From assembly GCA_002712575.1 (NCBI GenBank), contig PATZ01000023.1:22308-39872 (forward strand): a stretch of 17,565 nt of DNA, read 5' to 3'. Origin of the DNA: Methanobacteriota archaeon. GTDB lineage: Archaea; Thermoplasmatota; Poseidoniia; Poseidoniales; Thalassarchaeaceae. Each line of letters opens with the position of its first letter. Position 1 is the first letter of the stretch. A program made the position numbers and the translations under genes. Of this stretch, positions 8,392-17,420 are shown piece after piece. The notes under the pieces are model-generated. The model was given only the letters and a program-made list of their open reading frames with translations. It was not told where the DNA came from and did not search any database.

Positions 8392-10080
8392 TTAGAGTAA
8401 AGATTGGGCTGCTTCATTGGCTATTTCAAGTAAATACTCCGATAACGGCCCAATACCTAATAAGAAAGTAAGAGTAGCGCAAATGATTATAAAAATTCTC
8501 AGATATATCGATTTTTCTAGAGGTTCTTCAGTTATCGGTTCTTCAAAGAACATTATCAAACCTATTCTTAAATAGTAAAATAAAGAAACTGCGCTATTGA
8601 TTACTATTGAAAGGGCTAACCAAAATATAATATTAACACTAGATATCCATGTCAATATCGTTGCAGAGGATAAACTACCGGTATCTGCAGACACGTTTAC
8701 TATTCCGTTAATCATTAATAATTTAGATAAGAATCCGGACAGAGGAGGTATTCCTGCTAAAGAAAGCATGAATATGAACATAGAAACAGCTATCACAGGA
8801 TCTCTTCGTGTTAATCCCTTCAAACCATCCATATTGTGACTTAATCCATCATTTTCTAGCATTGTAAGAACCAGAAATGCTCCAAATTTAAATAAAACTA
8901 GAATTGCTAGATGGAAAATAACAGCAGTAACTATCAGAATATTTGAGTCTATATCTCCCAGTCCGCTTCCAATCGCAGCAATTGCAGCAAGCATATAACC
9001 TGCATGAGCAACACTAGAATAGGCCAACATTCTTTTTGGATTTTCACTACTTAAAGCGGCAAAATTACCCCACGTCATAGTAATTACAGAAATTAATGCA
9101 ATTGCAACCATCCAATATGCTTCTACTCCTTCTTCAGAAGATGTAATAATGAGTAATATTTTCATTATAGCCACAAAACCCATTGCTTTAGATGCAGTTG
9201 CAAGTAATCCGGCAATAGGGGAAGAAGACCCAGAGTATGCATCAGGAGTCGCCAAGTGGAAGGGCGCTGCACCAACTTTGAAGCCGAAAGCAACAAGCAT
9301 CAACCCGATTCCAATTCCAGCTAATGGATCAAGAGTTTTCATGGTCGACCATGAAGATGTTAAAGAGTCTATTTGTAGATTTCCATTCCACAAATAGAGT
9401 AAAGACATCCCATATATTCCTATAGCTGAGGCAACTGAACCAACAACAAAATATTTTGTTCCTGCCTCACCACCTATATCGCTTTCCTTGTAAAAGCCTA
9501 CAAGGACATATGAAGATAAGGATGCTAATTCCAGACAGACGAAAAGTAAGAATAAATGTGTAGATTTTGACATAAGACACATGCCTAATCCGACCATCAT
9601 TAAGAGGATGTAAAAGTCTACTTGACGGCGATTATTCATTAATATTTTTATTTTAGTACCTGTAGAAGATTCAGAGTCTGTGTTCTTGGGTATTTCAGGG
9701 TTTTTATGAGGAGGCATCCTGTAAAAGGTTGCTACAGATGTTATGAGTAGAGCGGAAGTAAAAATTAATGAAAATAAGTTAGTAAATTGATTTATCTCCA
9801 TTACTTCGCCTATATCTCCGTTGGTTCCTGCTTCAAGCATGATAAATGACATAAAGAACGATGCAGTGAAGGTAATCATTGCAACTATGCTTGGAATAAA
9901 TGGATTGTTTACTTGAGTGAATCGTGTGCCTCCAAAAAATACTGGTACAGTAGTATTGGTAAGAGGTATTCTAATCTTCGCATCACCCAAATTAGGAATT
10001 ATTATCATTGCTAATATACCAAAAATCATCATTGTCTCAGGCAATAATAATTCCAAAGAAATATCACTTAAAGAATTCAT
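8392..10080 (-). CDS. nuoN: NADH-quinone oxidoreductase-like (complex I) subunit N
   Basis: This 562-residue protein is an antiporter-like proton-channel subunit of the complex I membrane arm. Key residues are Glu184 in FVCLELASLSSYVLVGF, Lys268 in FGFKVGAAPFHLATPDAY and Lys298 in LLATASKAMGF, followed by NPKRMLAYSSVAHAGYML. A hydrophilic insertion of about 35 residues (RMPPHKNPEIPKN onwards, about 121-154) separates two early membrane segments. The frame continues upstream to 10119, but the ATG at 10080 forms an ATGA overlap with the nuoM stop and has GGAGG seven bases upstream, so it is preferred. It is the last gene of the nuo run; the aIF1A start follows after 50 nt. Confidence 0.95.
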   Translation of the reverse strand: MNSLSDISLELLLPETMMIFGILAMIIIPNLGDAKIRIPLTNTTVPVFFGGTRFTQVNNPFIPSIVAMITFTASFFMSFIMLEAGTNGDIGEVMEINQFTNLFSLIFTSALLITSVATFYRMPPHKNPEIPKNTDSESSTGTKIKILMNNRRQVDFYILLMMVGLGMCLMSKSTHLFLLFVCLELASLSSYVLVGFYKESDIGGEAGTKYFVVGSVASAIGIYGMSLLYLWNGNLQIDSLTSSWSTMKTLDPLAGIGIGLMLVAFGFKVGAAPFHLATPDAYSGSSSPIAGLLATASKAMGFVAIMKILLIITSSEEGVEAYWMVAIALISVITMTWGNFAALSSENPKRMLAYSSVAHAGYMLAAIAAIGSGLGDIDSNILIVTAVIFHLAILVLFKFGAFLVLTMLENDGLSHNMDGLKGLTRRDPVIAVSMFIFMLSLAGIPPLSGFLSKLLMINGIVNVSADTGSLSSATILTWISSVNIIFWLALSIVINSAVSLFYYLRIGLIMFFEEPITEEPLEKSIYLRIFIIICATLTFLLGIGPLSEYLLEIANEAAQSLL

Positions 10081-11711
10081 TTGAATGCCTCCAATATCCA
10101 ACCTATACTCGGACTCCAAACATCAGTATTTTCCATAGCACTAATCATTACATCAGACATAAACCCAGTGCTCCATGCGGACATCATATCCCAGAAAATA
10201 AATGGGAATATACCGAAAACAATAGTAAAAATTCCTAATATGAACATACCTGTATTTTCATTCCAAGTTACATCACTAGGGTCATCACCATGAAGAGAAT
10301 CGGGCAATATTCCTTGGTGAGGATCGTCGGATTCAAAAATCGTGCGCTGCATAGACGTTAGGTAATATGTTGCAGTAATGATTAATGTTAATGCAGGTAA
10401 CATAACTAACCAACCAAAAGACATCCAGAATGCTATTAATATTGCAACTTCAGCGACGAAGCCTGCCATCAAAGGGAGTCCTAAGCTAGCCATCCAACCC
10501 AACATCATATGGCCTGAAAGATATGGAGAGTGATGTGCTATTCCTCTCATTGAGCCAATTTCTAGTGTGTGATAATGGTGTTTGAAAGCTCCTGCAACAG
10601 CGAAGAGTAGTGGACTGATTACTCCATGTGCAAACATCATAAATAATGCGCCTGCGAAACCAAGAGGTTGCATTGTAGCTATACCTAGGAAAATTAATCC
10701 CATGTGTGAAACCGAGGAGTAAGCAACCATTCTCTTGAGATTTGTTTGACCCATACACACCCATGCTCCATAAACTAAACTTGCCATTCCTAAGAAAACC
10801 AAAAGTGGCATAAAAATTATAGTTGATTCAGGGAAGATTGTTACTGCAATTCTAAGAAAACCATAAGCACCCATTTTCAGCATTACTCCTGCTAATAACA
10901 TAGATCCGGCTGTTGGAGCTTGGACGTGTGCGTCAGGTAGCCAAGTATGTACAGGAACACTGGGCATTTTAGTTGCAAAGCCTATGAGTAAAAGTATCCA
11001 AACAAAGTGTCTAAGTCCTTCATTAGGAATCAAATTATCTTGTATAGACATTTGAACCAAATCAAAATGATGACCGGTCATGCTCCCCATTCCAGGTATT
11101 GGAGTAGTGTGGAAATACAACACTAGAATACCTATAAGCATGAAAACGCTTGCTGTAAATGTGTAAATGAAGAATTTCATTGCAGCATATTTTCTATCTT
11201 CACCACCCCACAATAGTATCAGCAGGAACATTGGAATCAAAGTCAATTCCCAGAAAACGTAAAAGATGAATAAATCTAATGAAACGAAAACACCCAATAA
11301 TGCTCCTTCCATAATTAATATTAGTGGATGGAAGATATGGCCTTTCTTTGCATCCCATTCTACGAGCATGGAAATTGGAATCAACAATGATGTTAGCCAA
11401 ATCATTGGAAATGAAAGAGCATCTGCACCGACATTCCATTGGACACCTATGGAAGAAATAAGTGAGAATTGTTCATTCTTCAAGACGTATTCGCCGTGTA
11501 AAATATTAGTCCAATCTACACTACCTATTGTTCCAATAAAAATCATTGTAGAAATAGCAAAAATTGCTAATGCCACTCCCATGGAAATGTTACGGGTAAT
11601 TAATTTTAGATTATCTGCAATTTCTTTGGGTAAAAATTGAGGCAAAATAATCAATAGAAGACCTGTGAAAATAGGTAAAAGAGTAATTATTGTTAAAGTA
11701 TCAAGATTCAT
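10077..11711 (-). CDS. nuoM: NADH-quinone oxidoreductase-like (complex I) subunit M
   Basis: This 544-residue antiporter-like subunit forms one of the proton channels of the membrane arm. Diagnostic sites are Glu155 in YVFWELTLIPMFLLI, Lys248 in GFATKMPSVPVHTWLPDAHVQ and Lys279 in GSMLLAGVMLKMGAYGFLR, then NLKRMVAYSSVSHMGLIFLGI. Its length is near that usual for NuoM (about 500). A loop at about 201-233 (HTTPIPGMGS to RHF) is hydrophilic and includes a His pair. The ATG overlaps the nuoL stop by one base (TAATG), and the stop overlaps nuoN by four bases, so translation of L, M and N is probably coupled. Confidence 0.96.
   Translation of the reverse strand: MNLDTLTIITLLPIFTGLLLIILPQFLPKEIADNLKLITRNISMGVALAIFAISTMIFIGTIGSVDWTNILHGEYVLKNEQFSLISSIGVQWNVGADALSFPMIWLTSLLIPISMLVEWDAKKGHIFHPLILIMEGALLGVFVSLDLFIFYVFWELTLIPMFLLILLWGGEDRKYAAMKFFIYTFTASVFMLIGILVLYFHTTPIPGMGSMTGHHFDLVQMSIQDNLIPNEGLRHFVWILLLIGFATKMPSVPVHTWLPDAHVQAPTAGSMLLAGVMLKMGAYGFLRIAVTIFPESTIIFMPLLVFLGMASLVYGAWVCMGQTNLKRMVAYSSVSHMGLIFLGIATMQPLGFAGALFMMFAHGVISPLLFAVAGAFKHHYHTLEIGSMRGIAHHSPYLSGHMMLGWMASLGLPLMAGFVAEVAILIAFWMSFGWLVMLPALTLIITATYYLTSMQRTIFESDDPHQGILPDSLHGDDPSDVTWNENTGMFILGIFTIVFGIFPFIFWDMMSAWSTGFMSDVMISAMENTDVWSPSIGWILEAFK
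10088..10092 (-). promoter_or_regulatory. Shine-Dalgarno site GGAGG that sets the nuoN start
   Basis: GGAGG lies within the last codons of nuoM, seven bases before the ATG at 10080. It supports the four-base ATGA overlap rather than the longer frame beginning at 10119. Confidence 0.7.
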
Positions 11712-13981
11712 TAACTAACCCCCCAAATCAATATGAAAATCGAAATCATGCCAACTGCAGCCATCAAAATATAATCTCTAGCACTACCGGTGGTTATTTT
11801 CCTAACCTCTAGTGATCCAGAAATTGATTTAGATTCTACTTGCTTAATTATACCATCAATGATTATTCTATCAAACCATGCAGAAAAATTTGCGAATGGT
11901 ATGACGGTTTTTGAGATTAAATACTCATAAAAATCATCAAAGTATAATCTATTTTGTAATGCCTCAGAAAATTGTGATTTTGAGATATTATCTACATCTT
12001 GACTTCCAAATTTACCTGAAAGAGATACCAACCAACTAATTATTGGTGTAGCCTTTTCTCCTTCTTGTAGCTTACCTCCGTGAACTCTTGCAGCAATAAT
12101 TGGCCCAATAATGAAAGAAAGCATGATTGTTGTCCAACCTACAATTCTTGTATTCATATCAGAAGGTAAAAATGCATGATCTAAAGTGTACAGCAATCCT
12201 TTCATTTTTAGATGATCTATATCTGATGATAAATAATGAATGATGTCAAATAAAGCAAGACCGAAACCACCAATTGCAGTTATTACTGTAAGAATCAAAA
12301 GTGGTTCTCTAATCCAAGGAGTTGATTCATGGACATGATTTACAACATCGTTTTTTGGCTTCCCTGCAAATGTCATTAGCCACATTCTAGACATGTAGAA
12401 TCCTGTCATACCTGCAGTTGCAAGAATGAGAATAGCCGGTACAAACATTATTGGCTCGTATTCTATTGCAGCTTTCCAAGTCTCAGCAATTATTCCTTCT
12501 TTAGACCAAAAGCCACCGATGAGAGGAACGCCAATGATTGACATAGAACCAAACATCATCGCTGTTGCAGTAATTGGCATCTTTGAAGCCAATCCACCCA
12601 TGTTACGCATATCTTGTGGATCAAAATTATGATCATGATTTCCTGCACTTATGTGATCATGTGCATGATGAACTTCATGTATAACAGAACCACTTGCCAT
12701 GAATAACATCCCTTTAGCCATTGCATGATTGAACAAATGGAACATTGAAGCTCCAAATGCTATCATAGCTGCATGGTGATGATCAGTATTGTAAAACCAC
12801 AGAGCCACCCCTAAACCAGTAAAAATATATGCTAATTGACTCATAGTTGAATATGCTAAAACTTTCTTAATATCATTTTGAACAAATGCAATTAATGCAG
12901 CCATAAATGCTGTTATCCCACCTATAAATGCAATGATTATTCCAAGATTTTCTAATCCTGGTACACCATTATAATGTATATCAACAAAAGGAACCATTCT
13001 GGCTACTAGGTATAATCCGGCATTTACCATGGTTGCAGCATGAATTAATGCAGAAACAGGTGTCGGACCTTCCATTGCATCTGGTAGCCATACATGAAGA
13101 GGAAATTGTGCAGACTTCCCAACTGCTCCTACAAACAATAGTAAAAGTGCCCAGAATAATTTATTTGAATCGACTAATGCTCCTGAAACACCTGTTGAGG
13201 GATCATCAAAAATCACTGAAAAGTCTAATGAGCCATAAATATCATACAGAATAAATAAACCAACCATTAGAAAAACATCACCAATTCTAGTTGTGAGAAA
13301 AGCTTTTTTTGCGGCGTATGCAGCACTAACTTTCCAATAATAAAATCCTATTAAGAGATAAGAACAGAGTCCCATTATTTCCCAAAATATGAAAAGCCAA
13401 AGAAAGCTGTCTGCCAATACCATTCCAAACATACCCATACTAAATAATACGAATTCTGCATAAAAGCGGTGATTACGATCTTCATTAATTGGATCAGTAT
13501 TCATGTAACCCATACTAAACCAACAAATCAAAAAGCACAGAAATGTTGCAACAAATAATATCATCAAAGTTACTTGATCTATCCAAACACCTATACCTAT
13601 TATCCGACTCTCTTGAGAGAAAACGTAATTGGATTGTAGGAAATCAAAAGTTATCCATTCAAACCATGTATCTACAGATTGATTTGAAAAATTGGAATTG
13701 CCATATAAGTAATCAAATAATATCCAAACTGCTATAGTTAACGATACCGTAAGTGCCCCAAGTGCTAAAATTCCACCTTCTTTCCATTTATTTTTCCATA
13801 TTGGATTTTTATTATAAATTTGACCAATTATTAAAATTGTAGGGAATATCAATAATGGTATTGTAACAATTAAAAATGCGGCATCTACAGATTCCCAGCC
13901 TACTAATTTTAGAATTGGTACCAACAATAATATAGGAATTAGAGGATATAGGAGTGGATATTCGTGTTTTACTTCACCCAT
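11711..13981 (-). CDS. nuoL: NADH-quinone oxidoreductase-like (complex I) subunit L
   Basis: This 756-residue protein is the distal antiporter-like subunit of the membrane arm. It shows Glu201 in IFWEIMGLCSYLLIGFYYW, Lys289 in GAVGKSAQFPLHVWLPDAMEGPTPVSALIHAATM, and Lys423 in NHAMAKGMLF. The C-terminal part has the lateral-helix and anchor region: YFDDFYEYL, WFDRIIIDG and a TGSARDYI stretch before a last membrane helix. It is longer than E. coli NuoL (613 residues), through hydrophilic segments at about 57-67 and 585-610 and the extended C-terminal part. A His-rich loop (HHAHDHISAGNHDH, 438-451) lies between GSVIHE and DMRNMGGL. The ATG has GAGGTGA four bases upstream, overlapping the nuoK stop. 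Confidence 0.96.
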   Translation of the reverse strand: MGEVKHEYPLLYPLIPILLLVPILKLVGWESVDAAFLIVTIPLLIFPTILIIGQIYNKNPIWKNKWKEGGILALGALTVSLTIAVWILFDYLYGNSNFSNQSVDTWFEWITFDFLQSNYVFSQESRIIGIGVWIDQVTLMILFVATFLCFLICWFSMGYMNTDPINEDRNHRFYAEFVLFSMGMFGMVLADSFLWLFIFWEIMGLCSYLLIGFYYWKVSAAYAAKKAFLTTRIGDVFLMVGLFILYDIYGSLDFSVIFDDPSTGVSGALVDSNKLFWALLLLFVGAVGKSAQFPLHVWLPDAMEGPTPVSALIHAATMVNAGLYLVARMVPFVDIHYNGVPGLENLGIIIAFIGGITAFMAALIAFVQNDIKKVLAYSTMSQLAYIFTGLGVALWFYNTDHHHAAMIAFGASMFHLFNHAMAKGMLFMASGSVIHEVHHAHDHISAGNHDHNFDPQDMRNMGGLASKMPITATAMMFGSMSIIGVPLIGGFWSKEGIIAETWKAAIEYEPIMFVPAILILATAGMTGFYMSRMWLMTFAGKPKNDVVNHVHESTPWIREPLLILTVITAIGGFGLALFDIIHYLSSDIDHLKMKGLLYTLDHAFLPSDMNTRIVGWTTIMLSFIIGPIIAARVHGGKLQEGEKATPIISWLVSLSGKFGSQDVDNISKSQFSEALQNRLYFDDFYEYLISKTVIPFANFSAWFDRIIIDGIIKQVESKSISGSLEVRKITTGSARDYILMAAVGMISIFILIWGVS

Positions 13982-13985
13982 TGAT

Positions 13986-13992
13986 TCACCTC
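13986..13992 (-). promoter_or_regulatory. Shine-Dalgarno site GAGGTGA for nuoL, overlapping the nuoK stop
   Basis: The minus strand reads ACTGAGGTGAATCAATGG. The nuoK stop TGA runs directly into GAGGTGA, four bases before the nuoL ATG. This is one of the best ribosome binding sites in the window. Confidence 0.75.
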
Positions 13993-14293
13993 AGTTTCTT
14001 AAAATATTAGCATCTTCTAAGGAGATAGTTTGTTGAGTACTATACATCGATAGTAGAATTGCTAATCCGATTGCAACTTCTGCTGCAGCAATAGCTATAG
14101 CGATTGCTGTAAAAACCCAACCATTTACATCCCCATAATACATTGCTCCAGCAACAAAATTAAGATTTGCAGAATTTAGCATTAATTCTATACACATCAA
14201 AACAACAATTGCATTTTTATGATAGAATGTACCCAATAATCCAATGCCGAATAATATAACGCCCAAGCCTACTATCCAGCTAGGATCTATCAT
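13991..14293 (-). CDS. nuoK: NADH-quinone oxidoreductase-like (complex I) subunit K
   Basis: This 100-residue subunit has three membrane helices and is part of the E-channel/proton path of complex I; the length is exactly the family norm. Glu36 in VLMCIELMLNSANLNFV and Glu72 in AAAEVAIGLAI fall at the same positions as the essential glutamates of E. coli NuoK. The ATG overlaps the stop of nuoJ2 by one base (TAATG), with GGAGG upstream inside the nuoJ2 end. The gap to nuoL is nine bases and carries the nuoL ribosome binding site. Confidence 0.96.
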   Translation of the reverse strand: MIDPSWIVGLGVILFGIGLLGTFYHKNAIVVLMCIELMLNSANLNFVAGAMYYGDVNGWVFTAIAIAIAAAEVAIGLAILLSMYSTQQTISLEDANILRN

Positions 14294-14631
14294 TATTCTT
14301 CCTCCTTTTGTTTAGAAGACCGAGTGAATTTTTTGAACGTACCTATGTTTTCCAAACTATCAGTTACCTCTCCCCTAATGTCCCATACAAGGTTGATTAA
14401 ACGTTCATCTCTCACTAAATATGATGCTCCTATCATTGCCATTGATAGAAGAGTTCCAAGTATGATGGTAGCAAATGCCCATTGATTGAAAATAGCATCT
14501 GCAAATTCAAGAGTTGTTGGTGAATTAGAAGAAATTGATACATCCCACATTGAATGTGAGTTTACCTCGTTTAATAGTAAAAGAACAAAAATAAAAACTC
14601 CTAAGGAAGTTAAAGCAGTTATTGTTCTCAT
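14293..14631 (-). CDS. nuoJ2: Complex I subunit J, C-terminal half as a separate protein (NuoJ2)
   Basis: This 112-residue protein has two hydrophobic helices, at about 3-21 and 51-70, and corresponds to the C-terminal part of NuoJ. The pattern FNQWAFATIILGTLLSMAMIGASYLVRD matches the last NuoJ helix. A charged tail of about 40 residues follows, ending KKFTRSSKQKEEE. On its own the sequence is weakly conserved; the assignment rests on its place between the NuoJ N-terminal half and nuoK. Split nuoJ is known in other archaea such as haloarchaea. The ATG overlaps the nuoJ1 stop by one base (TGATG), in a different frame. Confidence 0.8.
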   Translation of the reverse strand: MRTITALTSLGVFIFVLLLLNEVNSHSMWDVSISSNSPTTLEFADAIFNQWAFATIILGTLLSMAMIGASYLVRDERLINLVWDIRGEVTDSLENIGTFKKFTRSSKQKEEE

Positions 14632-14897
14632 CAGTAGTCAACCTCCAATATCTTACGTCTTGTCAGCATCACACCAAATTGAACAACTAACATTACTGAC
14701 CCGAGATAAACAAGGATTTGTATTGCTGCCAACATCTCAGCTCCAGCTAATACAAAAACACCAGCAACTGCAAAAAAGGTGAGCATTAAAGAAAGTAAAG
14801 AATGTGCTACTCTCCTGGAGAATACACATCCAAGAGCACCTAAAATAGCAAGTGCAGCCATAATAACGAATACAATTGCTTGGAAGTCGATAGACAA
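14631..14897 (-). CDS. nuoJ1: Complex I subunit J, N-terminal half as a separate protein (NuoJ1)
   Basis: This 88-residue protein holds the first three helices of NuoJ: about 5-25, 33-53 and 56-78. The third, IQILVYLGSVMLVVQFGVML, is the conserved NuoJ helix that carries the pi-bulge near the quinone end of the membrane arm. The family motif VFSRRVAHSLLSLMLTFFAVAGVFVLAGAEMLA precedes it. The start is a TTG, with GGAGG seven bases upstream inside the nuoI end and a gap of two bases after the nuoI stop. No better ATG fits, since the NuoJ homology begins right away. The C-terminal half follows as nuoJ2. Confidence 0.92.
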   Translation of the reverse strand: MSIDFQAIVFVIMAALAILGALGCVFSRRVAHSLLSLMLTFFAVAGVFVLAGAEMLAAIQILVYLGSVMLVVQFGVMLTRRKILEVDY

Positions 14898-14899
14898 AA

Positions 14900-15871
14900 T
14901 CAGGCCTCCAATTTGGCAGCTTTCTTTTCTCGCTTTATTTTTTCTTTCTGAGCCCTCTTTGCTAATTCCATATCTACTCGCTCTTGATGAACTGCTGGAA
15001 GTAAACGTGTACGGTCAGCATCCATCCAAAGTTGTTCACGCGTATATCCAGTCATGCCATCATATTCATTTGTCATGAAAAATGATTCGAAAGGACATGC
15101 TTCTGCACATAAACCACAAAACATACATCGTCCCAAATCAATTCTACCAGATACAATATCTTGTTCTGCAGGTCTTAGATGCGAAGTGTTGATCTCTTCA
15201 ATTCCAGAACCGTCTTGCCATCTGACGGTAGCAGTATCACCTGAAATATCTATAATTTCAGCGAAATCATATTGTTGTGGAGGAGGTGCGTGTGCGTGAA
15301 CTAAATCAAACTCTGTTTCTATTTCAGTAAAATTATCTTTCTCACGGGCTGCTAAACCACCAGCTTCTAATTCTCCTCCATAACCATGCCATTCATCTCC
15401 TTCATTTGTAGTATCAAGAACATTGACTCTTGTTTCACTAGTCATGTGTAAGCAATCATTTGGACAAGCCTTGACGCATGCCTTACAGGCAGTACAAGTC
15501 TCCCAAACAATTCCTATACGTCCATTATAGTTACCTGGGACAAAAAGCCATGGCTCCATATCTTCTAATCTTTCATATGGATACATTATAGTGACTGGGC
15601 GTTCCAAAAAAGGCAATGCAGGAGAGGATTCCCTATCTGCAGAATATACCTGTCCAACGGATGGGTGATTTTCACCTACTCGATTAATTGTATATTCATC
15701 TACCATGGTTGCTTCTTGTGCGTGATAGTCATTTTTGAGAAATTTTGCTTTCCCAATATAAGGAATGGTACGTAAAGCAGTTTTCATTGTAATCCACATT
15801 GGCCTAATGACTAAATTACGAAAATTTGGTGTTGCATGTGGGTGTCCTGTATTATATTCTAGATTTTTCAA
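14900..15871 (-). CDS. nuoI: Complex I subunit I (two 4Fe-4S clusters) with a large insertion between the cluster motifs
   Basis: This 323-residue ferredoxin-like subunit carries electrons along the peripheral arm towards quinone. The first motif is CTACKACVKACP (Cys126, 129, 132, 136) and the second CMFCGLCAEACP (Cys249, 252, 255, 259). All eight ligands are present. NuoI is usually about 160-180 residues, with roughly 29 residues between the motifs; here there are 112. Most of the extra lies at about 155-240 and includes AEIIDISGDTATVRWQDG, which looks like a small SH3/Tudor-like barrel. The N-terminal region before the first motif is also long. A Lys-rich tail (302-320) ends the protein. 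The start is TTG at 15871, five bases after AGGAGGTGA, overlapping nuoH by 20 bases. Confidence 0.94.
   Translation of the reverse strand: MKNLEYNTGHPHATPNFRNLVIRPMWITMKTALRTIPYIGKAKFLKNDYHAQEATMVDEYTINRVGENHPSVGQVYSADRESSPALPFLERPVTIMYPYERLEDMEPWLFVPGNYNGRIGIVWETCTACKACVKACPNDCLHMTSETRVNVLDTTNEGDEWHGYGGELEAGGLAAREKDNFTEIETEFDLVHAHAPPPQQYDFAEIIDISGDTATVRWQDGSGIEEINTSHLRPAEQDIVSGRIDLGRCMFCGLCAEACPFESFFMTNEYDGMTGYTREQLWMDADRTRLLPAVHQERVDMELAKRAQKEKIKREKKAAKLEA
14905..14909 (-). promoter_or_regulatory. Shine-Dalgarno site GGAGG that supports the nuoJ1 TTG start
   Basis: GGAGG in the last codons of nuoI stands seven bases before the TTG at 14897. This is the same spacing as for nuoN, and it makes the non-ATG start credible. 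Confidence 0.65.
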
Positions 15872-17420
15872 TTAATTCACCTCCTATCTTTCCTTGGAAC
15901 TTTTCTTTCTTGAATTTCCTTTTAGTTTCCTTCTGAGTACCGGGATATGCCTTTGATAAAGTCTGTGTACTATATGGACGGCGTGATTGTGATAATGCTT
16001 CTTCATCTTCATCTATGGCATATATTACAAAGAAGAATAGTGCAGTAATTGTGAGAACAGGCGCAGCCCAAATTGGCCAACCAGAATCTGTCCAAACTTC
16101 AAGACGTAAGAAGGTAGCGATTACAAGGTTTACTAGGGATAAGGGAAGAAGATAGAGCCATCCAAATTCTAAAATTTGATCTGTTCTTATACGGTGTAAT
16201 GATGCCCTAATCCAGACAAAAAATGCAAATAATAACCATGCTTTTAGTAAGACCCAAACTAAGCCTGGTATTATGGTGAATATTACTTCAAAGATTCCTC
16301 CTAAGAATGGTAATGAAGATAAGAAATCTTCGAAAGGAAACTCCCAACCTCCTAAGAAGAACATTGCGAATAAGATACATGCCGCATAAGCCCTCATCAT
16401 TTCAGTAGCGAACATAAGACCCCATCGTATTCCTCCATATTCAGTCCACCAGCCTTCTACAAGTTCCGCTTCTGCTTCGGGCATATCAAAAGGTATTCGC
16501 TCCACTTCTGCAATCATAGTAACAAGAAAAAGTACAGCACCTAAGGGAAGAATGAAAATATTCCAAGTATTGGATGTTTCGATTTGAAAATCAACAATTT
16601 CTAGAATATTGAATGACCCGCTAATTACAGCTATGCTTAGAACTGTTATTAAAAGAGGTATTTCATATGCAGTCAATTGTGCTGCAGAGCGCATTCCTCC
16701 TATCAGGGTATACTTGTTATTAGAAGACCAGCCAGCAAAAAATACTCCCAATGGGGCAACACCGAAGATTGCCATCATGAAAATTAAAGAAAGATCCGGA
16801 TTTGCCGCCCAGATATGCGGACCAAATGGAATAAATGCATAAACCATTATCGTGGTTGCTATTATTATTACAGGGGCTATCTCGAATACCAATTTATCGG
16901 CTTTCTTGGGAACTATATGTTCCTTTGTAGCAAATTTTAGAAAATCGGCTAATGCCTGGAAAAAGCCTGGCAATAGAAACCAAATACCATGATATCCTCT
17001 ATTGTTTACTCTTGAAATAGTTTCATGAGGATGTTCATTACCGAATGACTGGTTCAATTTGGCATTTACAAAACCTATTGGAGTGCCCATCCCCATAGGT
17101 AATTTATTCCACCAATCTCCTGCAGTTGCACTTCCTTCTCCAATCCAAAGACTGCGTAATGAAGTCGTGGCGCCAATTCTATCCATTAATCTTCCAATAA
17201 ATTTACGTTCTATGTACGGGACAACCATTAGAGTAAGCATCATAATTGCAAATACCACCGTGCACATAACTGTAGCTAAGAAAAAGGATTCTAATGCTGG
17301 TTGCATTTGTGCAAAGTCATTTTGTAATGAGTTGGGTAATAAATCGTGAGTAGTATCCATTGACCATCCAATAATAGATTCAGACCATCCACGAATATCT
17401 AACCAATCACTACTAGTCAT
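15852..17420 (-). CDS. nuoH: Complex I subunit H with an enlarged quinone-site loop
   Basis: This 522-residue membrane subunit links the peripheral and membrane arms and forms much of the quinone cavity. Conserved parts are VVPYIERKFIGRLMDRIGA (67-84), FLKFATKEHIVPKKADKLVF, GWSSNNKYTLIGGMRSAAQLTAYEIP (230-255), ERIPFDMPEAEAELVEGWWTEYGGIRWG (307-334) and ASLHRIRTDQILEFGW. The family norm is about 325-350 residues. The extra comes from a 45-residue N-terminal region, about 55 residues inserted at 85-150 just after the first loop, and a basic C-terminal tail of about 50 residues from 471 on. The ATG has AGGTGA four bases upstream, overlapping the nuoD stop. Confidence 0.95.
   Translation of the reverse strand: MTSSDWLDIRGWSESIIGWSMDTTHDLLPNSLQNDFAQMQPALESFFLATVMCTVVFAIMMLTLMVVPYIERKFIGRLMDRIGATTSLRSLWIGEGSATAGDWWNKLPMGMGTPIGFVNAKLNQSFGNEHPHETISRVNNRGYHGIWFLLPGFFQALADFLKFATKEHIVPKKADKLVFEIAPVIIIATTIMVYAFIPFGPHIWAANPDLSLIFMMAIFGVAPLGVFFAGWSSNNKYTLIGGMRSAAQLTAYEIPLLITVLSIAVISGSFNILEIVDFQIETSNTWNIFILPLGAVLFLVTMIAEVERIPFDMPEAEAELVEGWWTEYGGIRWGLMFATEMMRAYAACILFAMFFLGGWEFPFEDFLSSLPFLGGIFEVIFTIIPGLVWVLLKAWLLFAFFVWIRASLHRIRTDQILEFGWLYLLPLSLVNLVIATFLRLEVWTDSGWPIWAAPVLTITALFFFVIYAIDEDEEALSQSRRPYSTQTLSKAYPGTQKETKRKFKKEKFQGKIGGELIEKSRI
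15877..15885 (-). promoter_or_regulatory. Full-length Shine-Dalgarno site AGGAGGTGA for the nuoI TTG start
   Basis: AGGAGGTGA pairs fully with the expected 16S rRNA 3' end (ATCACCTCCT) and lies five bases before the TTG at 15871. It sits inside the last codons of nuoH, encoding Ile-Gly-Gly-Glu. It decides the start in favour of TTG over the ATG codons 24 and 28 residues in. Confidence 0.8.

Follow-up and report, generated by a model that had tools for sequence, protein, structure and literature searches.

An order-specific insertion between the two cluster motifs of NuoI in Poseidoniales, predicted to fold as a small barrel

Introduction

In cyanobacterial NDH-1, ferredoxin is contacted by Lys86, Lys89 and Lys91 of NdhI, whose long hairpin is a docking element (PMC7021789; PMC6992706; all papers are cited here from excerpts). 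NdhO (PF11910), a small NDH-1 subunit of cyanobacteria and plastids, sits near the electron-entry end (PMC7021789), and the two papers disagree in the parts available on whether NdhO and NdhV touch ferredoxin. For complex I without the NADH module, the direct electron donor has been described as an open question (PMC11238625). Here we analyze NuoI, the counterpart of NdhI, from a member of Candidatus Poseidoniales (Marine Group II, MGII; two named families, Thalassarchaeaceae and Poseidoniaceae). Its gene lies on a 17,565-nucleotide stretch of contig PATZ01000023.1 (assembly GCA_002712575.1, Thalassarchaeaceae, positions 22,308 to 39,872), hereafter the window, and it carries an insertion between its two iron-sulfur cluster motifs.

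MGII are globally abundant marine archaea of the surface ocean. A survey of their genomes terms their complex I 'canonical NADH dehydrogenases' (PMC6336850, in the part available).

Results

About 85 residues are inserted between the cluster motifs of NuoI

The features on which the analysis rests are the following.

14900..15871, minus strand: nuoI, complex I subunit I, 323 residues, TTG start (open reading frame; Fer4 domains)
15464..15496, minus strand: first CxxCxxCxxxC motif, Cys126-Cys136 (Cys126/129/132/136), CTACKACVKACP (translation of the open reading frame)
15095..15127, minus strand: second CxxCxxCxxxC motif, Cys249-Cys259 (Cys249/252/255/259), CMFCGLCAEACP (translation of the open reading frame)
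15173..15427, minus strand: insertion specific to the order, residues 149-233, falling between the counterparts of NdhI Asn85 and Lys86 (alignment with NdhI, Nqo9 and outgroup NuoI)
15158..15379, minus strand: predicted SH3-like small barrel, residues 165-238 (AlphaFold2 and structure comparison)

The two CxxCxxCxxxC motifs and the place of the gene between nuoH and nuoJ identify the protein as NuoI. A domain scan matched Fer4 domains, and TIGR01971 (NuoI) was the best of 112 matches in the NCBIfam scan, in two stretches and with a score of 70.1 bits, below the cut-off of 113.05, in a scan that covered this inserted NuoI. The open reading frame bears out the original prediction in that 112 residues intervene between Cys136 and Cys249, and the stretch quoted there, AEIIDISGDTATVRWQDG..EEINTSHLRP, is found in the translation. 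Counted from alignments, the same spacing is 29 residues in NdhI of T. elongatus and 34 in T. thermophilus Nqo9. The MAFFT alignment pairs NdhI Asn85 with residue 148 of the window NuoI and NdhI Lys86 with residue 234. Residues 149-233, about 85 in all and close to the span of about 155-240 first proposed, are therefore inserted at the hairpin tip of NdhI. The alignments place the MGII insert between the two cluster motifs, at the counterpart of the hairpin with which cyanobacterial NdhI docks ferredoxin.

Among the genomes searched, the insertion is confined to one order of the phylum

As far as the genomes searched show, the insert is confined to one order within the phylum. We read 63 MGII loci, chosen for matching the window NuoI, out of 88 genomes, and all 63 have exactly two motifs separated by 108-113 residues. 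The corresponding distance at 20 outgroup loci of the phylum is 23-43 residues: 42 in six loci from another family of the same class (Marine Group III, MGIII, by inference) and 23-43 in the 14 others. Three of the outgroup loci (L078, L082 and L083) have two motifs only, and not all of these may be NuoI. The insert of about 85 residues is thus present at 63/63 MGII and 0/20 outgroup loci, and in the phylum, to which the scan was confined, the possibility that most archaeal NuoI proteins carry it did not hold. The outgroup loci without the insert rule out a common archaeal feature within the phylum scanned.

A protein search with NuoI matched 56 of 59 genomes of the order, the unmatched ones (G007, G014 and G015) being 80-92% complete. 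Of 292 genomes drawn from the phylum, 199 gave a match, 79 of them in the order's two families. The two samples together hold 88 genomes of the order; in 87 the match runs through the insert, and in G048 it is cut at a contig end. Among the matches listed outside the order, coverage is limited to the two motif regions. Public contigs contain 519 stretches encoding a relative, and the best 80 of the 519 are mostly titled Poseidoniales, Poseidoniaceae, Poseidonia or Euryarchaeota. When about 5.8 billion proteins were searched with the insert alignment for stand-alone relatives, 78 proteins of 58-188 residues were listed and no clear family emerged, not every match having been inspected; many of the 78 resemble pieces of MGII NuoI (high identity, a Fer4 domain, names such as ferredoxin or Poseidoniaceae). 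No title on a NuoI insertion in MGII appeared among the literature listings, which comprise titles and abstract starts and are in some cases partial.

Several individual sequences deserve mention. In the database NuoI P0101, the motifs are 96 residues apart and the insert is shorter, without the first barrel strand; as a single sequence, it is possibly an assembly error. A public record titled 'uncultured Rhodobiaceae bacterium' (L137) carries an MGII-type nuoI and is probably a mislabelled bin, and a contig in a viral collection (L089), which encodes a piece of MGII-type NuoI, is probably cellular DNA. Three genomes of one genus have NuoI frames of about 450 residues (L047:1628-2995; L048 and L060 similar). 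The C-terminal extension of the L047 protein ends in the stretch LQAIKGIGPFIEEKLNALGIYTFSQI, which we take to resemble a helix-hairpin-helix. Open frames of 456-462 residues are also listed for G051 and G216, from another genus.

The insert is constrained and predicted to fold as a small barrel

Identity between the two families is 80-81% in both core regions of NuoI, 43% in the barrel and 44% in residues 149-182. We chose 15 pairs for the ratio of nonsynonymous to synonymous substitution rates (dN/dS) and computed 13. In six of these 13 the insert dS was saturated; in the seven with an estimable dS, insert dN/dS was 0.04-0.10. In 13/13 pairs, dN is higher in the insert than in either core region. 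The insert is therefore constrained, and less so than the core. Its near-constant length at 63/63 MGII loci, together with the low dN/dS, shows that the insertion is more than chance. Across 39 barrel sequences, positions G6, A10, H29, F38, G46, W53 and A70 are invariant.

In AlphaFold2 predictions the insert comes out better than the rest of NuoI, as an SH3-like (Tudor/KOW/SH3) barrel with strands at residues 173-177, 201-210, 213-218, 224-228 and 233-244; the model thus has the five strands and about 60-70 residues of a small barrel, as a prediction. A barrel of the SH3, Tudor or KOW kind had been guessed from the letters, and the model and the structure comparison support that guess. The barrel also includes strand 173-177, which precedes the quoted stretch. 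Less confident parts, by predicted local distance difference test (pLDDT), are residues 151-170 (73-77) and 181-200 (65-66) in the full model, and residues 139-168 (54-60) and 179-198 (64-68) in a model of the insert alone.

A possible resemblance of the insert to NdhO

The first insert profile, compared with 177,635 PDB sequences, gave two matches at E <= 10, the putative oxygenase 4nao (0.098) and NdhO (1.6). A wider barrel profile placed NdhO first (E 0.3), followed by the Tudor domain of TDRD3 (0.69). NdhO ranked second in the Foldseek search with the full model and first with the insert (E 0.033), with SH3 and myosin chains close behind; no Foldseek match got down to E 0.001. Because just three distinct NdhO sequences were matched in the PDB copy searched, the first rank is unlikely to be chance alone, with the proviso that several lists were examined and that the sequence and Foldseek tests are not independent.

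Aligning 200 distinct inserts with 25 NdhO sequences in hhalign gave a probability of 74%, an E-value of 2.7e-5 (one comparison) and a score of 29.2, against 16.9 for the best of 200 column shuffles and 10.0 for the reversed profile, NdhO being the sole barrel family compared. An earlier, smaller comparison had given 12.5%, its score of 22.4 lying above the highest of 300 shuffles (21.75), and in global mode the probability was 0.05%; the profiles were widened after these weak first results, a choice made after seeing the data.

Searches with NdhO itself were less clear. Pfam NdhO reaches its gathering cut-off in 0/59 genomes of the order. Its weak matches fall in 7/59 genomes, with one of nine places in NuoI (G045, E 3.09), and it matches 1/39 barrel sequences (E 0.19). 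A first NdhO profile did not place NuoI first among 10,712 open reading frames. After two plant sequences were added, 144 NuoI stood above nearly all of 351 other frames of 250-480 residues (area under the curve 0.99), the 144 being one family with a maximum of 6.2 bits and ten listed matches that span 15-17 model residues. In the VIA structure comparison, NdhO is absent from, and NdhS present in, the 50 rows of either list, and PF11623 (NdhS) has no match in the window's own genome (G000). Because the hhalign score beats its shuffles, yet Pfam NdhO stays below cut-off in 59/59 genomes, we call the insert 'NdhO-like' and do not claim membership of NdhO; homology is unproven.

A complex I gene cluster without NuoEFG

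The remaining features of the window belong to the same gene cluster or to further insertions in NuoI.

15608..15733, minus strand: second MGII-specific NuoI insertion, residues ~47-88, before the RPVTIMYPYE core (alignment)
15542..15562, minus strand: third MGII-specific NuoI insertion, ~7 residues (104-110) (alignment)
15852..17420, minus strand: nuoH, 522 residues (PF00146)
16980..17150, minus strand: apparent expansion specific to MGII in the N-terminal region of NuoH, residues ~91-147 (3 MGII against 2 outgroup sequences)
14293..14897, minus strand: split nuoJ, with open frames 14631-14897 (one half of PF00499) and 14293-14631 (the other half, below cut-off)
8392..14293, minus strand: nuoK, nuoL, nuoM and nuoN (PF00420, PF00361; L, M and N named by order and length)

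The two further NuoI insertions (~47-88 and ~104-110) were absent from the original account. Pfam confirms NuoA, B, C and D upstream of the window (L084) and H, the split J, K and three antiporter-like subunits inside it, so that the 11-subunit set nuoA, B, C, D, H, I, J, K, L, M and N is found together. NuoH, NuoC and NuoA appear longer in MGII than in two outgroup clusters, with expanded loops (3 against 2 sequences with automatic starts; L084, L085 and L086), and several subunits of the complex therefore seem to have grown in the order.

NuoF (PF01512), NuoE (PF01257) and the NuoG-type PF10588 were found neither in the nuo cluster nor in the window's own genome (84% complete), and are absent from 53/59 genomes of the order, in agreement with the earlier description of a complex lacking NuoEFG. 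The FrhB/FdhB C-terminal family, presumably linked to FpoF, is likewise absent from the window's own genome. The absence of the NuoEFG families from 53/59 genomes and the rebuilt electron-entry hairpin argue against the reading of these complexes as 'canonical NADH dehydrogenases'.

The same six of 59 MGII genomes (G013, G023, G029, G031, G033 and G044) have NuoE-, NuoF- and NuoG-type domains, located away from nuoI. In these genomes the NuoE and NuoF domains are close together, in frames of equal length (528-652 residues), with a PF10588 frame of 900-917 residues within about 2 kb in 5 of the 6. The NuoE/F-type genes are on another contig than nuoI in five genomes and about 21 kb away in G029. 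They may represent a separate dehydrogenase, for example an NAD-dependent formate dehydrogenase.

The two outgroup clusters compared, from MGIII-like and other Thermoplasmatota, have the same gene order around nuoI, one of them with a split nuoJ. NuoI of these lineages has no insert, and 17/20 loci have two extra C-terminal CxxCxxCxxxC motifs. These additional motifs (L064-L077 and L079-L081), found at 0/63 MGII loci, may form an on-board electron relay. In one possible scenario, the barrel was gained in MGII and an on-board cluster extension was lost.

Discussion

By a narrow measure, we consider it probable that the barrel is a built-in electron-entry module near cluster N6a, which shapes or gates the access of a soluble low-potential donor. 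NuoG lies near N6a in other complexes. Standing near N6a at the electron-entry hairpin, the barrel would act in analogy to the NdhO, NdhS and NdhV subunits around NdhI in NDH-1, and donor binding may fall partly on another surface such as NuoD. It is plausible that an electron-input partner docks at the insert, a proposal favoured by the insertion point, at the hairpin that NdhI uses to dock ferredoxin. The 2-oxoacid:ferredoxin oxidoreductase domain is found in 57/59 genomes, and reduced ferredoxin is therefore a likely currency.

Charge weighs against this proposal, at least in its simplest form. The insert has a mean net charge of -16 (73 sequences), and the equivalent hairpins of NdhI and six outgroups have +1 to +3; the FdxA-like ferredoxins of MGII, one genome per family, are themselves at -18 and -20. 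This inversion of the hairpin's charge is the strongest point against a plain ferredoxin dock; it suggests gating, a different donor or a cap, and makes it more likely that the barrel sets donor selectivity or gating than that it forms a basic ferredoxin-docking patch. A lone RnfB-like dicluster ferredoxin (L176 and L180, one genome per family) has an N-terminal 36 or 55 residues carrying +4 or +6, and this basic extension makes it a candidate electron donor; both ferredoxin names come from models below cut-off and one sequence of each. A donor with a basic patch, such as this one, would suit the barrel better than the acidic FdxA-like type. Deleting NdhO increased ferredoxin-dependent activity in cyanobacteria (PMC7021789, in the part available), so a damping role of the MGII barrel is as possible as a helping one.

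The acidic surface, unsuited to an acidic donor, would fit a passive structural cap. Such a cap would stabilise NuoI and the peripheral arm or, in an aerobe, protect exposed N6a from oxygen and solvent, and it would play no part in donor choice. The enlargement of NuoH, NuoC, NuoA and other parts of NuoI is as expected if insertions replace supernumerary subunits, and divergence between the families is faster in the barrel (43% identity) than in the core (about 80%). A cap accounts less readily for the location of the barrel at the electron-entry hairpin, and the invariant positions in 39 barrel sequences suggest more than bulk, some of them perhaps being fold residues. We regard a cap as possible and rather unlikely. 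Tudor and SH3 domains elsewhere bind partners of a non-redox kind, and the barrel might do likewise, for example with a regulatory protein or a second copy of the complex. No observation made here suggests such a partner, although neither a search for one nor a test of ligand-binding residues was made, and we consider this improbable. A disordered linker, which the original prediction had named as its refutation, or an assembly or annotation artefact is most improbable: parts of the insert are modelled less well (pLDDT 54-60 at the lowest, in the insert-only model), but the confident barrel, the low dN/dS and the near-constant length at 63/63 MGII loci, including L055 on a chromosome-length contig of 2,064,136 bases, rule out the linker and speak against the artefact.

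The insert offers a single, well-delimited and testable candidate for what determines the donor, and an extra module at the expected electron-entry site hints at how a stripped-down complex I may be fed.

Compared with known systems, MGII NuoI shares the two CxxCxxCxxxC motifs, the YPYE core and the nuoH-nuoJ placement with ordinary NuoI, NdhI and Nqo9, which lack the barrel and the two other MGII insertions. The barrel and NdhO are of similar length and align at an early Gly, then over a long segment containing His/Asp and Pro, and finally at GEV.D..GD.A.V. NdhO forms a subunit of its own that binds NdhJ, NdhK and NdhN, and its Lys4 and Lys5 face ferredoxin (PMC7021789), whereas the MGII insert is acidic and lies inside the NuoI frame, not in a separate small subunit. 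NdhS (PF11623) is SH3-like and lies in a groove of NdhI, as a separate subunit unlike the MGII barrel. That the barrel is a true homologue of NdhO, a subunit considered exclusive to oxygenic photosynthesis, captured inside MGII NuoI, or that NdhO was recruited from such a domain, is a tentative and somewhat doubtful idea. If the kinship is real, it bears on how the NDH-1 accessory subunits arose, a matter that PMC12038448 calls unresolved in the part available; a 'photosynthesis-specific' electron-entry subunit would have relatives in an archaeal respiratory enzyme, and two complex I lineages without NuoEFG would use the same module at the same place.
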